In this document: piece after piece, positions 5,702 through 38,065 of the stretch
Position numbering within the stretch: position 1 is the stretch's first letter
How the letters are laid out: each line of letters starts with the position of its first letter
Source: Ideonella sp. WA131b
GTDB taxonomy: Bacteria > Pseudomonadota > Gammaproteobacteria > Burkholderiales > Burkholderiaceae_C
DNA length: 64,000 nt
NCBI GenBank assembly: GCA_023657425.1
Contig: JAGTJW010000003.1
Location: 372,001-436,000 of the forward strand
Reading direction: 5' to 3'
The notes under the pieces: model-generated
The model's database searches: none
Told to the model about the DNA's origin: nothing
The model's input: the letters and a program-made list of their open reading frames with translations, nothing else
Program-made: the position numbers and the translations under genes

Positions 5702-6040
5702 TCAGGACTGGCCCGGGGCCGGGGTGCTCGGAGCCGGCAGCGGCTCGAACTCGGCGTCGCAGCCGCGGCCGGCGGCAATCCAGCGACGCGCCAGTGCCCG
5801 GGCCAGGGGCGCTGGCAGCCAGGGCAGCCAGCGCGCGGGCGAGACCAGGGCCCCGCAGCGGTAGCGGGTATCGGCTTCGTGCCACTCGAGCGCCACGCAC
5901 GCCCCGCGCCGGCGGCGCGACAGCAACATGCCCAGCGGGCAGGGCTCGGCCGCGCAGCACACGCCGCAGCCGTTGCAGGCGGCCCCGGTGGCCGGCTTGG
6001 TCGGGGCAGTGGGGTGCAGGTGGATCACGCGCGGGGCCAT
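5702..6040 (-). CDS. Small CxxCxxCC-motif metal-binding protein, function unknown
   Basis: A 112-residue protein from the ATG at 6040; an alternative start at 6049 adds three residues. Near the N-terminus it has the cysteine cluster CNGCGVCCAAEPCPLG, with Cys22, Cys25, Cys28, Cys29 and Cys34, and further cysteines later. This resembles the YkgJ/UPF0153 group of CxxCxxCC proteins thought to bind an iron-sulfur cluster or zinc. The remainder has no recognisable domain and no transmembrane segment. It is transcribed away from sucA and shares the 266-base divergent region with it. No function is known to me, so metal binding is inferred from the cysteines only. Confidence 0.75.
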   Translation of the reverse strand: MAPRVIHLHPTAPTKPATGAACNGCGVCCAAEPCPLGMLLSRRRRGACVALEWHEADTRYRCGALVSPARWLPWLPAPLARALARRWIAAGRGCDAEFEPLPAPSTPAPGQS

Positions 6041-6143
6041 GCCACGCACAGTCTGCCTGCTCAGCGCCGTGGCCTGTCAGGAAATTGAGGGGTCTGCGGG
6101 CGTCTAATCCGGCGGCAGCACAAGGGTGGCCGTGACAGCGCGG

Positions 6144-6152
6144 TGTTAGAGT
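6144..6152 (+). promoter_or_regulatory. Candidate extended -10 promoter for the sucAB-lpd operon
   Basis: TG at 6144-6145, one base, then TAGAGT at 6147-6152 matches an extended -10 element. No good -35 is visible at the right distance. Transcription would start near 6159, just before the structured leader. Weak evidence from sequence alone. Confidence 0.3.
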
Positions 6153-6177
6153 GCCTTCCCAGACAACGAAGGTCCTT

Positions 6178-6300
6178 CCCGTCCCCTTGCCGGCACCGAG
6201 AAAGCCGGCAAGACGGGTCGCTAATCCGCCAACCGGTGAAGCCGGGACGCGGAAGGTTGATCAACCCATCAGCAGCCGCGGAAACCGTGGCGAAAGGTGA
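6178..6300 (+). promoter_or_regulatory. Structured 5' leader of sucA, candidate sucA RNA motif
   Basis: The stretch in front of sucA folds into several local stems. The first has CTTGCCGGC (6186-6194) pairing with GCCGGCAAG (6204-6212), extended by CCCGT (6178-6182) with ACGGG (6213-6217). The second has CCGC 6226-6229 with GCGG 6249-6252 around an inner CCGG/CCGG pair. Then come the palindrome GGTTGATCAACC (6255-6266) and CCGCGG/CCGTGG at 6276-6290, ending next to the ribosome-binding site AAAGGTGA (6293-6300). A conserved cis-regulatory RNA called the sucA motif is known upstream of sucA in Burkholderiales. Position and structure fit it, but I could not run a covariance search. Control of translation initiation is the likely role. 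Confidence 0.7.
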
Positions 6301-6306
6301 GCGAAG

Positions 6307-9174
6307 ATGATGCAGCAGTACCGGCTCAACTCCTACCTGTTCGGGGGCAACGCGCCCTACGTGGAGGAGTTGTACGAGGCCTACCTCGACAACCCCGGGA
6401 GCGTGCCCGACAACTGGCGCGCCTACTTCGACAACCTCCAGCACGTGCCCGCTGTCGACGGCAGCAACAGCCGCGACGTCGCCCACGCGCCCGTCATTGA
6501 GAGCTTCGCCCAGCGCGCCAAGGCCAACGCCTTCGCGCTGAAGGCCAGCGAGGCCGACCTCGCCGTCGCCCGCAAGCAGGTGCACGTGCAGAGCCTGATC
6601 GCGGCCTATCGCTTCCTCGGCAGCCGCTGGGCGGATCTCGACCCGCTCAAGCGCACCGAGCGCCCGAGGATTCCCGAACTCGAGCCGTCGTTCTACGACT
6701 TGACCGAGTCGGACTTGGACATCACCTTCTCCGCCGCGAACACGTACTTCAGCAAGTCCGAACACCTGACGCTGCGGGAGATCGTTCAGGCGCTGCGCCA
6801 GACCTACTGCGGCACCGTCGGTGCCGAGTTCATGCACTGCACCGACCCCACAGAGAAGCGCTGGTGGCAGGAGAGGCTGGAGAGCGTGCGCAGCACGCCG
6901 AGCTTCACGCCCGACGAGAAGAAGCACATCCTTGAGCGCCTGACGGCCGCCGAAGGCCTTGAGCGCTACCTTCACACCAAATATGTCGGCCAGAAGCGCT
7001 TCAGCCTCGAAGGCGGCGAGAGCTTCATCGCCAGCATGGACGAGGTCGTGCAGCGCGCCGGCACCAACGGCGTGCAGGAGATCGTCATCGGCATGGCCCA
7101 CCGTGGCCGCCTGAACGTGCTCGTCAACACGCTGGGCAAGATGCCGGCCGACCTGTTTGCCGAGTTCGACCACACCGCCAAGGAAGACCTGCCCGCTGGC
7201 GACGTGAAGTACCACCAGGGCTTTTCCAGCGACGTGACCACCCCCGGCGGCCCGGTGCACCTGAGCCTGGCCTTCAACCCCAGCCACCTGGAGATCGTCA
7301 ACCCGGTGGTCGAAGGCTCGGTGAAGGCGCGCATGGACCGCCGTGGCGACAAGGAAGGCGACCAGGTGCTGCCGGTGCTGGTGCACGGCGACGCCGCCTT
7401 CGCCGGCCAGGGCGTGGTCATGGAAACGCTGGCGCTGGCGCAGACGCGCGGCTACTACACGGGTGGCACCGTGCACCTGGTGGTGAACAACCAGATCGGC
7501 TTCACCACCAGCGACCCGCGCGACAGCCGCAGCACGCTTTACTGCAGTGACGTGGTCAAGATGATCGAGGCGCCGGTGCTCCACGTAAACGGCGACGACC
7601 CCGAAGCCGTGGTGCTGTGCACCCGCCTGGCCATGGACTACCGCCAGCACTTCAACAAGGACGTGGTGGTCGACATCATCTGCTTCCGCAAGCTGGGCCA
7701 CAACGAGCAGGACACGCCTTCGCTCACCCAGCCGCTGATGTACAAGAAGATCGCCACGCACCCGGGCACGCGCAAGCTGTACGGCGAGAAGCTCATCGCC
7801 CAGGGCGTGCTCAAGGCCGACGGTGCCGACAGCCCCGACGGCATGGTCAAGGCCTTCCGGGCCGCCATGGACGAAGGCCGCCACACCGCCGACCCGGTGC
7901 TCACCAACTTCAAGAGCAAGTACGCCGTCGACTGGGCGCCTTTCCTCGGCAAGAAGTGGACCGACGCCGCCGACACCGCGCTTCCTCTGGCCGAGGTCAA
8001 GCGGCTGGCCGAGAAGATCACCACCATTCCAGGCAACTTCAAGCTGCACCCGCTGGTGGAGAAGGTCATCGCCGACCGCGCCGCCATGGGCCGTGGCGAG
8101 ATCAACGTCGACTGGGGCATGGGCGAGACGCTGGCCTATGCCTCGCTGGTGGCCAGCGGCTATGCCGTGCGCCTGAGCGGCGAGGACTGCGGGCGCGGCA
8201 CCTTCGTGCACCGCCACGCCGTCTTGCACGACCAGAACCGCGAGAAGTGGGACACCGGCACCTACGTGCCGCTGCAGAACGCGGCCGAAGGGCAGGCGCC
8301 GTTCACCGTGATCGACTCCATCCTGTCGGAAGAGGCGGTGCTGGGCTTCGAGTACGGCTACGCCAGCGCCGAGCCGAACACGCTGACGATCTGGGAAGCG
8401 CAGTTCGGCGACTTCGTCAACGGCGCGCAGGTCGTCATCGACCAGTTCATCGCCAGTGGCGAGGTGAAGTGGGGCCGCGTCAACGGCCTGACGCTGATGT
8501 TGCCGCACGGCTACGAGGGCCAGGGCCCCGAGCACAGCAGCGCGCGCCTGGAGCGCTTCATGCAGCTGGCGGCCGACAACAACATGCAGGTCGTGCAGCC
8601 GACCACGGCGAGCCAGATCTTCCACCTGCTGCGCCGGCAGATGGTGCGGCAGTTCCGCAAGCCGCTGATCATCTTCACGCCCAAGAGCCTGTTGCGCGCG
8701 AAGGACGCCACCAGCCCGCTGACCGAGTTCACCAAGGGCGAGTTCCGCACCGTCATCGGCCCCAACCGTGCCGATATCGATGGCGACGCCGTCAAGCGCG
8801 TGATCTGCTGCTCGGGCAAGGTCGCGTACGACCTGCTGAAGAAGCGCGAGGAAAAGAAGACCTCCGACGTGGCCATCATCCGCGTCGAGCAGCTGTACCC
8901 GTTCCCGCACAAGGCCTTCGCGGCCGAGATGAAGCGCTTCCCCAACGCCACCGAGGTGGTGTGGTGCCAGGACGAGCCGCAGAACCAGGGCGCCTGGTTC
9001 TTCGTGCAGCACTACGTGCACGAGAACATGCTCGAAGGCCAGAAGCTCGGTTATGCCGGGCGCCCGGCCAGCGCCTCGCCGGCGGTGGGCTACAGCCACC
9101 TGCACCAGGAGCAGCAAAAGGCGCTGCTCGACCAGGCCTACGGCAAGCTCAAGGGCTTTGTCCTTACCAAGTAA
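6307..9174 (+). CDS. sucA: 2-oxoglutarate dehydrogenase E1 component
   Basis: At 955 residues it has the usual length of the thiamine-diphosphate-dependent E1o. The N-terminus MMQQYRLNSYLFGGNAPYVE carries the short segment that binds the E2 core. Typical family blocks follow: GMAHRGRLNVLVN, VVNNQIGFTTSDPRDSRST, HVNGDDPEAVV (cofactor-binding aspartate region) and LMLPHGYEGQGPEHSSAR. The enzyme decarboxylates 2-oxoglutarate and transfers the succinyl group to the lipoyl arm of SucB in the cytosol. The start at 6307 has AAGGTG about 8 bases upstream. sucB follows after 114 bases and lpd after that, giving the whole complex in one operon, likely controlled by the RNA leader. Confidence 0.97.
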   Translation: MMQQYRLNSYLFGGNAPYVEELYEAYLDNPGSVPDNWRAYFDNLQHVPAVDGSNSRDVAHAPVIESFAQRAKANAFALKASEADLAVARKQVHVQSLIAAYRFLGSRWADLDPLKRTERPRIPELEPSFYDLTESDLDITFSAANTYFSKSEHLTLREIVQALRQTYCGTVGAEFMHCTDPTEKRWWQERLESVRSTPSFTPDEKKHILERLTAAEGLERYLHTKYVGQKRFSLEGGESFIASMDEVVQRAGTNGVQEIVIGMAHRGRLNVLVNTLGKMPADLFAEFDHTAKEDLPAGDVKYHQGFSSDVTTPGGPVHLSLAFNPSHLEIVNPVVEGSVKARMDRRGDKEGDQVLPVLVHGDAAFAGQGVVMETLALAQTRGYYTGGTVHLVVNNQIGFTTSDPRDSRSTLYCSDVVKMIEAPVLHVNGDDPEAVVLCTRLAMDYRQHFNKDVVVDIICFRKLGHNEQDTPSLTQPLMYKKIATHPGTRKLYGEKLIAQGVLKADGADSPDGMVKAFRAAMDEGRHTADPVLTNFKSKYAVDWAPFLGKKWTDAADTALPLAEVKRLAEKITTIPGNFKLHPLVEKVIADRAAMGRGEINVDWGMGETLAYASLVASGYAVRLSGEDCGRGTFVHRHAVLHDQNREKWDTGTYVPLQNAAEGQAPFTVIDSILSEEAVLGFEYGYASAEPNTLTIWEAQFGDFVNGAQVVIDQFIASGEVKWGRVNGLTLMLPHGYEGQGPEHSSARLERFMQLAADNNMQVVQPTTASQIFHLLRRQMVRQFRKPLIIFTPKSLLRAKDATSPLTEFTKGEFRTVIGPNRADIDGDAVKRVICCSGKVAYDLLKKREEKKTSDVAIIRVEQLYPFPHKAFAAEMKRFPNATEVVWCQDEPQNQGAWFFVQHYVHENMLEGQKLGYAGRPASASPAVGYSHLHQEQQKALLDQAYGKLKGFVLTK

Positions 9175-37980: not shown

Positions 37981-38065
<85 letters not shown>

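Follow-up and report, generated by a model that had tools for sequence, protein, structure and literature searches.

The sucA leader of Ideonella sp. WA131b, at about positions 6171-6304 of a 64,000-nucleotide (nt) stretch of contig JAGTJW010000003.1 (the window, in which all positions are given), belongs to the sucA RNA family, Rfam RF01070. It is proposed, with a probability of roughly one half, that this cis-acting leader controls sucA translation by means of a core (stems P1 to P4) that would be stabilised by a signal and hide the Shine-Dalgarno (SD) sequence, and of a 5' arm, CCUUCC, that would compete for the sequence GGAAGG within this core.

The whole window was scanned with all Rfam 15 models and two families scored above their own cut-offs, tRNA at 37984-38065 and RF01070 at 6218-6303 on the forward strand. 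The latter match spans positions 1-83 of the 83-position model with 72.4 bits against a gathering cut-off of 40 and an expectation value (E) of 9.5e-12 for the 64-kb window. It was recovered in a loose-threshold search of the region alone, in which two other matches were far below their cut-offs. The motif ends at 6303, 3 nt before the ATG at 6307, and is single-copy in this genome. The gene at 6307-9174 is taken to be sucA and the two downstream open reading frames (ORFs) presumably are sucB and lpd, all named by likeness to known genes. An initial annotation, made from the letters alone, had proposed a sucA RNA motif in front of sucA at 6178-6300, and the covariance-model search bears it out. 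The structured leader stands, whereas its bounds are better set at about 6171-6304, since the Rfam motif ends at 6303 and a 5' element, GGTCCTTCC, starts at 6171. The features of the core and the gene are as follows.

6218-6303, forward strand: sucA RNA, full RF01070 model (1-83).
6218-6222, forward strand: 5' strand of P1, UCGCU, pairing with AGCGA at 6300-6304 in the minimum free energy (MFE) fold.
6225-6253, forward strand: P2 (TCCGC/GCGGA) with P2a (CCGGT/GCCGG), from the Rfam match and MFE fold; two-sided changes in 4/5 pairs of P2 and 3/4 of P2a in the model-fitted alignment described below.
6255-6266, forward strand: P3 (GGTT/AACC), from the Rfam match and MFE fold.
6267-6299, forward strand: P4 (CATC/GGTG) enclosing P4a (6275-6281/6285-6291), from the Rfam match and MFE fold; two-sided changes in 7/7 pairs of P4a and 2/4 of P4 in the same alignment.
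6293-6301, forward strand: Shine-Dalgarno sequence AAAGGTGAG, within the 3' strands of P4 and P1, from sequence and fold.
6307-9174, forward strand: sucA (2-oxoglutarate dehydrogenase E1), an ORF with a SucA-like start behind 368 of 373 leaders.

The MFE fold of 6218-6304 is the Rfam structure with P1 lengthened to five pairs (UCGCU/AGCGA). Free folding of this segment gave -39.3 kcal/mol (z -3.78, 1 of 200 shuffles equally good) and that of the leader 6161-6330 gave -67.5 kcal/mol (z -2.78, 2 of 200 as good). The SD region is paired in the MFE fold, GGUG at 6296-6299 with CAUC at 6267-6270 in P4 and AGCGA at 6300-6304 with UCGCU at 6218-6222 in P1. No terminator-like site was found in 6050-6400, and a terminator or attenuator reading was rejected on this ground. 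Translation is thus the likely level of sucA control, as the SD is also taken up by the 3' sides of P4 and P1. Judged by the folding models, four stems are present beyond chance. They stand in series as the initial annotation had described, the last adjoining the ribosome-binding site: a hairpin named P0 at 6178-6217, P2/P2a at 6225-6253, P3 at 6255-6266 and P4a at 6275-6291, followed by the SD. The last three are stems of the sucA motif, as had been thought likely for all four, whereas P0 lies outside the family model and is a hairpin of the window's lineage.

Compensatory changes in relatives, to which the initial annotation had looked as a check of the motif, are present. They were sought in two sets of leaders hand-chosen from the loci collected: a plain MAFFT alignment of 42 leaders, not fitted to the model, and a model-fitted alignment of 100 leaders, which is thereby biased towards the model. 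In the plain alignment 79.8 % of cells pair, compared with 74.9 % after shuffling (0 of 500 shuffles as high), two-sided change is seen in 13 of 27 pairs (a level reached by 7 of 500 shuffles) and covariation scores 0.204, compared with 0.137 for shuffled alignments and at most 0.173 for slid versions of the structure. In the model-fitted alignment 86.7 % of cells pair, 19 of 27 pairs show two-sided change and the score is 0.298, against 0.146 for shuffled alignments, with slid versions reaching at most 0.128 and at most 14 pairs. Most of the covariation is carried by P2, P2a and P4a. P4 varies mainly in its 5' strand (CAUC in the window, CGCU or AGCU elsewhere, CACU opposite AGUG in leaders L394-L396), as would be expected if the SD, which forms the 3' strand, must stay. 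A separate compensatory case was seen before sucA in leader L298 (genome G1157), where P2 is rewritten as GUUCAUC/GAUGAAC at a weak model score of 27.7 bits.

The leaders compared upstream of the motif come from 373 loci. A sucA-type protein start lies within 500 nt of the motif start in 368 of them, the other five being four apparently off-target loci and a mis-positioned one (L356); among the loci examined the leader belongs to sucA alone. Ten pattern hits in which the fuller motif was missing (L064, L071, L087, L104, L121, L131, L156, L166, L171, L177) were dropped before the counts, and among the matches listed L064, L087, L104 and L121 are of clearly other groups. Nine of the 373 were excluded, as not sucA-confirmed (L069, L300, L356, L375, L376), mis-aligned (L110) or short upstream (L126, L144, L332); L356 on re-reading has a leader with CCTTCC. 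Some loci are the same place twice, and the merging of duplicates, with L386 re-positioned beforehand, left 334 distinct leaders. The repeats L366-L371 and loci L392-L398 stand outside the 334; the contig of L392 begins inside the motif. The features upstream of the core are as follows.

6144-6152, forward strand: TGTTAGAGT, an extended -10-like box (TGnTAnAGT), putative sucA promoter, inferred from sequence.
6171-6179, forward strand: 5' element GGTCCTTCC with core CCTTCC at 6174-6179, the commonest upstream hexamer; proposed switch arm, outside the Rfam model.
6178-6217, forward strand: P0 hairpin (CCCGTC/GACGGG and TTGCCGGC/GCCGGCAA, with a CCC bulge), lineage-specific and outside the Rfam model, from fold z score and two-sided changes.
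6251-6256, forward strand: GGAAGG at the P2/P3 junction, the exact complement of CCTTCC; full pairing possible in 294 of 295 element-bearing leaders.

The 5' element was noticed by reading the leaders side by side, many of which have GGYCCTTCC upstream. CCTTCC is the commonest hexamer at 3-80 nt before the motif, present in 231 of the 334 distinct leaders and in 116 of 189 clusters, whereas dinucleotide shuffles average 6.8 clusters and never exceed 14. A one-base C-to-T variant (mostly CCTTCT, compatible with G.U pairing) was found in 64 more leaders, which brings those with the element in some form to 295 of 334; some of these calls are chance matches (about 3.6 % of clusters by the shuffles), L128 of Cupriavidus probably being one. 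The window holds a single GGYCCTTCC in its 64 kb, where chance would give about 1.2, and its occurrence in this copy therefore carries no weight by itself.

Of the 126 clusters that have any of four -10-like boxes (162 clusters carry the element), 59 show a box of the TGnTAnAGT type ahead of the element; a scan with the sigma-70 consensus found no promoter. The spacing of the element in these 126 clusters varies, with 10-39 nt to the box and 3-64 nt to the motif, which argues against a fixed promoter element. The 5' untranslated region (UTR) of sucA in B. cenocepacia was inferred from differential RNA sequencing (dRNA-seq) to be 118 nt long (PMC4603805), and CCTTCC starts 107-111 nt before the ATG in four Burkholderia loci. 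On the assumptions of the same start site across species and of a UTR counted to the base before the ATG, CCUUCC would lie about 10 nt from the RNA 5' end. The arm is very probably transcribed, because a UTR of that length would include CCUUCC in the four Burkholderia loci. A literature search, which did not take in the founding paper of the motif, returned nothing on a 5' element of the sucA leader; that paper is reportedly by Weinberg and others, 2007. In three leaders of the Alcaligenaceae type (L216, L219, L334) an AAGGC about 10-25 nt before the element was seen by eye that could pair with the GCCUU holding the element, so that the arm may be hidden there by a hairpin.

Pairing of CCUUCC with GGAAGG would break both P2 and P3. 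In 161 of 162 clusters the partner pairs at 6/6 positions with the element of the same leader, compared with 4 for the SD region, which reaches 5/6 in 114; CCUUCC was accordingly rejected as an anti-SD strand, though it may make a weak contact. Partner variants beside the element are GGGAGG and GGAGGG, both G.U-compatible, and L227 shows a two-sided change, CCCTCC/GGGGGG, with a free MFE fold that forms this helix. On a FastTree tree of SucA starts with 193 tips (L116, which has no protein, is missing), partners unable to pair with CCUUCC, among them GGATGG, GAATGG, GAGAGG, GAACGG and GCATGG, stand at 11 of the 29 element-less tips, compared with 1 of the 164 element-bearing ones (L299). Over the tree the element changes 14 times and the compatibility of the partner 6 times; about five partner-change events could be placed, four of them on branches that lack the element and account for 16 % of the total tree length (binomial P 0.003). 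The scores of L393-L397 and L227 were set by hand, with L393 (TCTTCT) and L227 (CCCTCC) taken to bear the element, and automatic scoring put L310 among the element-less tips though it has CCTCCT; in the count of distinct leaders both L227 and L310 are placed among the 39 without the element.

L397 (genome G787) was considered as a decisive case of compensation and rejected. Its leader, in front of a distant sucA (0.88 from the nearest tip), carries a perfect 7-bp complement, CCUUCUG/CAGAAGG, and homology to sucA RNA is not established: it scored 8.6 bits (E 0.77) with R1, a broader model built from 42 diverse leaders. In the tree count it still figures as a compensated leader that has the element.

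A number of observations weigh against the arm as a switch strand. As to the covariation of the core, slid versions of the structure in the plain alignment reach 14 pairs and 74 cells, compared with 13 and 71 for the structure itself, with only 37-44 % of the slid cells pairing. For the arm and its partner, the tests that take the tree into account are weak, an independent-pairs test having given a median p of 0.25. Of the 39 element-less leaders 23 keep a partner capable of pairing (among them L227 and L310, in which the element is changed or shifted) and in 19 it is GGAAGG itself: in leaders of Cupriavidus type (L123, L133 and, by tree place, L008 and L012), in group f188 (L211, L224, L228, L373), in those like Polynucleobacter meluiroseus (L099, L117, L313, L314) and in L183, L192, L226, L325, L358, L365 and L372. 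GGAAGG is therefore conserved for another reason too. Changes that break the pairing also stand beside an intact GGAAGG, namely CGTTCC in L183 and L192 and several, including T-to-C, in Cupriavidus.

Folding points the same way. It favours the Rfam fold in the window copy, where the arm helix reaches 0.75 % at equilibrium (median 2 %, mean 23 % over 162 leaders), and scrambling of the element leaves the MFE no weaker (mean change -0.6 kcal/mol). When folding was forced in the 162 leaders, states with and without the arm differed by a median of 0.75 kcal/mol and SD exposure hardly changed (median 0.41 with the arm, 0.39 without; higher with the arm in 95). Among sampled structures, those with the arm had a slightly more exposed SD in 89 of 114 leaders (0.42 vs 0.33). 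Contrary to expectation, they also paired the SD more often with the P4 side (0.46 vs 0.25), and less often in only 10 of 114. Neither forced nor sampled folding thus gave a clear release of the SD by the arm. The simplest reading of the pattern among relatives, formed after the data had been seen and in agreement with them, is that GGAAGG belongs to the core. The arm could then be lost with the core unaltered, and the core would seldom change as long as an arm is present. The evidence for the arm as a switch strand competing with P2 and P3 is suggestive only.

On the proposal made at the outset, the core fold should lower translation, because the SD is paired in P4 and P1, and would be the OFF state. 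A signal linked with the 2-oxoglutarate dehydrogenase reaction, whether metabolite, cofactor or the enzyme as such, would stabilise the core, and the CCUUCC arm, transcribed first, would compete for GGAAGG, open P2 and P3 and favour the other state, mainly during transcription. It is a more tentative suggestion, short of an even chance, that sucA RNA is a bistable translational switch with its regulatory strand at the mRNA 5' end and that some lineages, Cupriavidus and Polynucleobacter among them, have lost this arm. The 2-oxoglutarate dehydrogenase is a meeting point of carbon and nitrogen metabolism. In Herbaspirillum the motif transcript was high on nitrate, where a rise of sucA and sucB is cited by the authors (PMC7011215), a result that fits nitrogen-linked control and singles out no ligand.

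The conservation of CCUUCC could also have another cause, with the core alone hiding the SD in P4 and P1 and responding to the signal, and the element kept as, for example, a pyrimidine-rich site at which ribosomal protein S1 lands or a 5' element of mRNA stability. This is rather unlikely, though it agrees with the 19 distinct element-less leaders that keep GGAAGG and with the rarity of the arm helix at equilibrium in the window copy. Against it, single changes of the element, compared by eye, are mostly C-to-U opposite G (exceptions are CGTTCC in L183 and L192, CCTACC in L310 and the multiply changed Cupriavidus sites), and the chance that a 6-nt element exactly complements any of the motif's 78 hexamers is about 2 % at equal base use. 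Conservation of CCTTCC at the DNA level, as a promoter or transcription-factor site with no bearing on the RNA fold, is improbable: the element does lie near the transcription start, but its distance to the -10-like box ranges over 10-39 nt between lineages and it exactly complements the core.

The nature of the signal raises two further alternatives. An association with one gene is usual for autoregulation, and the leader was seen before sucA only (368 of 373 loci confirmed), so that what it binds might be a protein, the 2-oxoglutarate dehydrogenase complex or some other, and not a small molecule. Such autogenous control is considered less probable again than action of the core by itself, as a metabolite of the 2-oxoglutarate dehydrogenase step would give the same association. 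There is only a slight chance that a trans-acting small RNA (sRNA) binds CCUUCC or the core and represses sucA. Enterobacteria do control sucA post-transcriptionally through the sRNA GlnZ, which acts far upstream of the sucA start (PMC9731577), but a covarying stem-loop core exceeds the needs of an sRNA site.

The P0 hairpin fills the gap between the 5' element and the motif, which has a median of 37 nt in the TAnAGT group that includes the window and medians of 4, 10 and 15 nt with the other -10-like boxes; the long linkers of the TAnAGT group fold. P0 alone (6178-6217) gave -23.8 kcal/mol (z -5.19, 0 of 200 shuffles as good). In an alignment of 41 relatives out of 69 candidates, two-sided changes were counted in 7 of 12 pairs of the structure as named by the authors, with 89.2 % of cells pairing, compared with 84.5 % after shuffling and at most 53.4 % for slid versions. 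RNAalifold, run on the same alignment, returned only the outer helix, nearly invariant and without covariation, the inner helix being counted from the named structure. P0 is probably a spacer that would fold away the long linker and keep the arm near the core.

The distribution of RF01070 was assessed at a cut of E 0.001, with the own genome included in the counts for class, order, family and genus; scans of more than 40 genomes used stricter filters, under which weak matches may be lost. The motif was found in 3 of 274 genomes sampled from the class, each of the three a member of the window's family, in 50 of 399 genomes of the order (47 over the cut-off; the order is a GTDB-style group, wider than that of NCBI), in 279 of 299 of the family, in 36 of 41 of the genus (34 over the cut-off) and in 0 of 14 control genomes. 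This narrow distribution agrees with the initial annotation, which had described a motif of Burkholderiales. The R1 model, with matches counted at E 0.01, detected the leader in 90 of 101 genomes of another family with CCTTCT leaders (presumably Alcaligenaceae), in 135 of 150 of a third, in 3 of 5 of a fourth and in 57 of 399 of the order, at least two of these (G647, G466) without sucA behind the match. The label Alcaligenaceae, like that of Polynucleobacter for genus g260, is our assumption, in part from likeness to named loci. Among 38 hand-picked genomes of the window's family R1 re-found the 30 positive for RF01070 and none of the 8 negative, of which six have sucA.

With the filters off, a strongly changed leader was obtained from three related genomes (L394-L396; 27.9, 23.0 and 17.1 bits). 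In these leaders, from genus g409 of the window's family, the P2 region is a long hairpin, P3 is GGUG/CACC, P4 has CACU opposite AGUG, and CCTTCC and GGAAGG are both missing. L393 (G800) has a weak sucA-RNA-like leader of 14.8 bits, with P3 seemingly expanded and TCTTCT upstream. Divergent from sucA, at 5702-6049 on the reverse strand of the window, lies a small cysteine-rich ORF (CNGCGVCC), which we take to resemble a YkgJ-type protein; by eye, similar DNA apparently occurs near the leader of a genus mate (L184).

The window copy is a member of the known family RF01070: the whole model is matched above its cut-off, before sucA and with the SD within the pairing. It differs from the model in what lies 5' of model position 1 (6218), where the leader has both P0 and the CCUUCC element and the model neither. 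The sucA-II and sucC RNAs lead their namesake suc genes. Both are, like sucA RNA, suc-named RNAs (PMC2864571), and belong to Gammaproteobacteria, but neither model (RF01758, RF01759) matched in 5900-6500, even at E up to 10. The leader resembles translational riboswitches with an SD-hiding aptamer in its conserved junction core, the SD in 3' strands and a possible competing strand; it differs from these in that sucA RNA has no known ligand and that the strand proposed to compete precedes the core on its 5' side, where one between core and gene would be usual. The ligand is listed as '?' in PMC3766115 and called unknown in PMC7011215, in line with the initial annotation, and the family appears as a predicted, putative or probable riboswitch without a named ligand (PMC3766115, PMC3521395, PMC4603805). 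PMC10636060 labels RF01070 'sul1 RNA' while describing a citric-acid-cycle enzyme, a label at odds with the Rfam name. With the regulation of sucA by GlnZ in enterobacteria the leader would share post-transcriptional control by pairing upstream of the start, although GlnZ is a trans-acting sRNA that works with Hfq and involves no structured leader family (PMC9731577).

The 5' element is a useful and testable addition that the Rfam model lacks, and constructs trimmed to the Rfam boundaries would miss it. If the arm is the switch strand, constructs that include it (about 6161-6306), combined with mutation of its six bases, would provide a direct test of the mechanism and a better ligand screen, and, if this is true, the leaders of Cupriavidus and Polynucleobacter would be natural arm-less controls.
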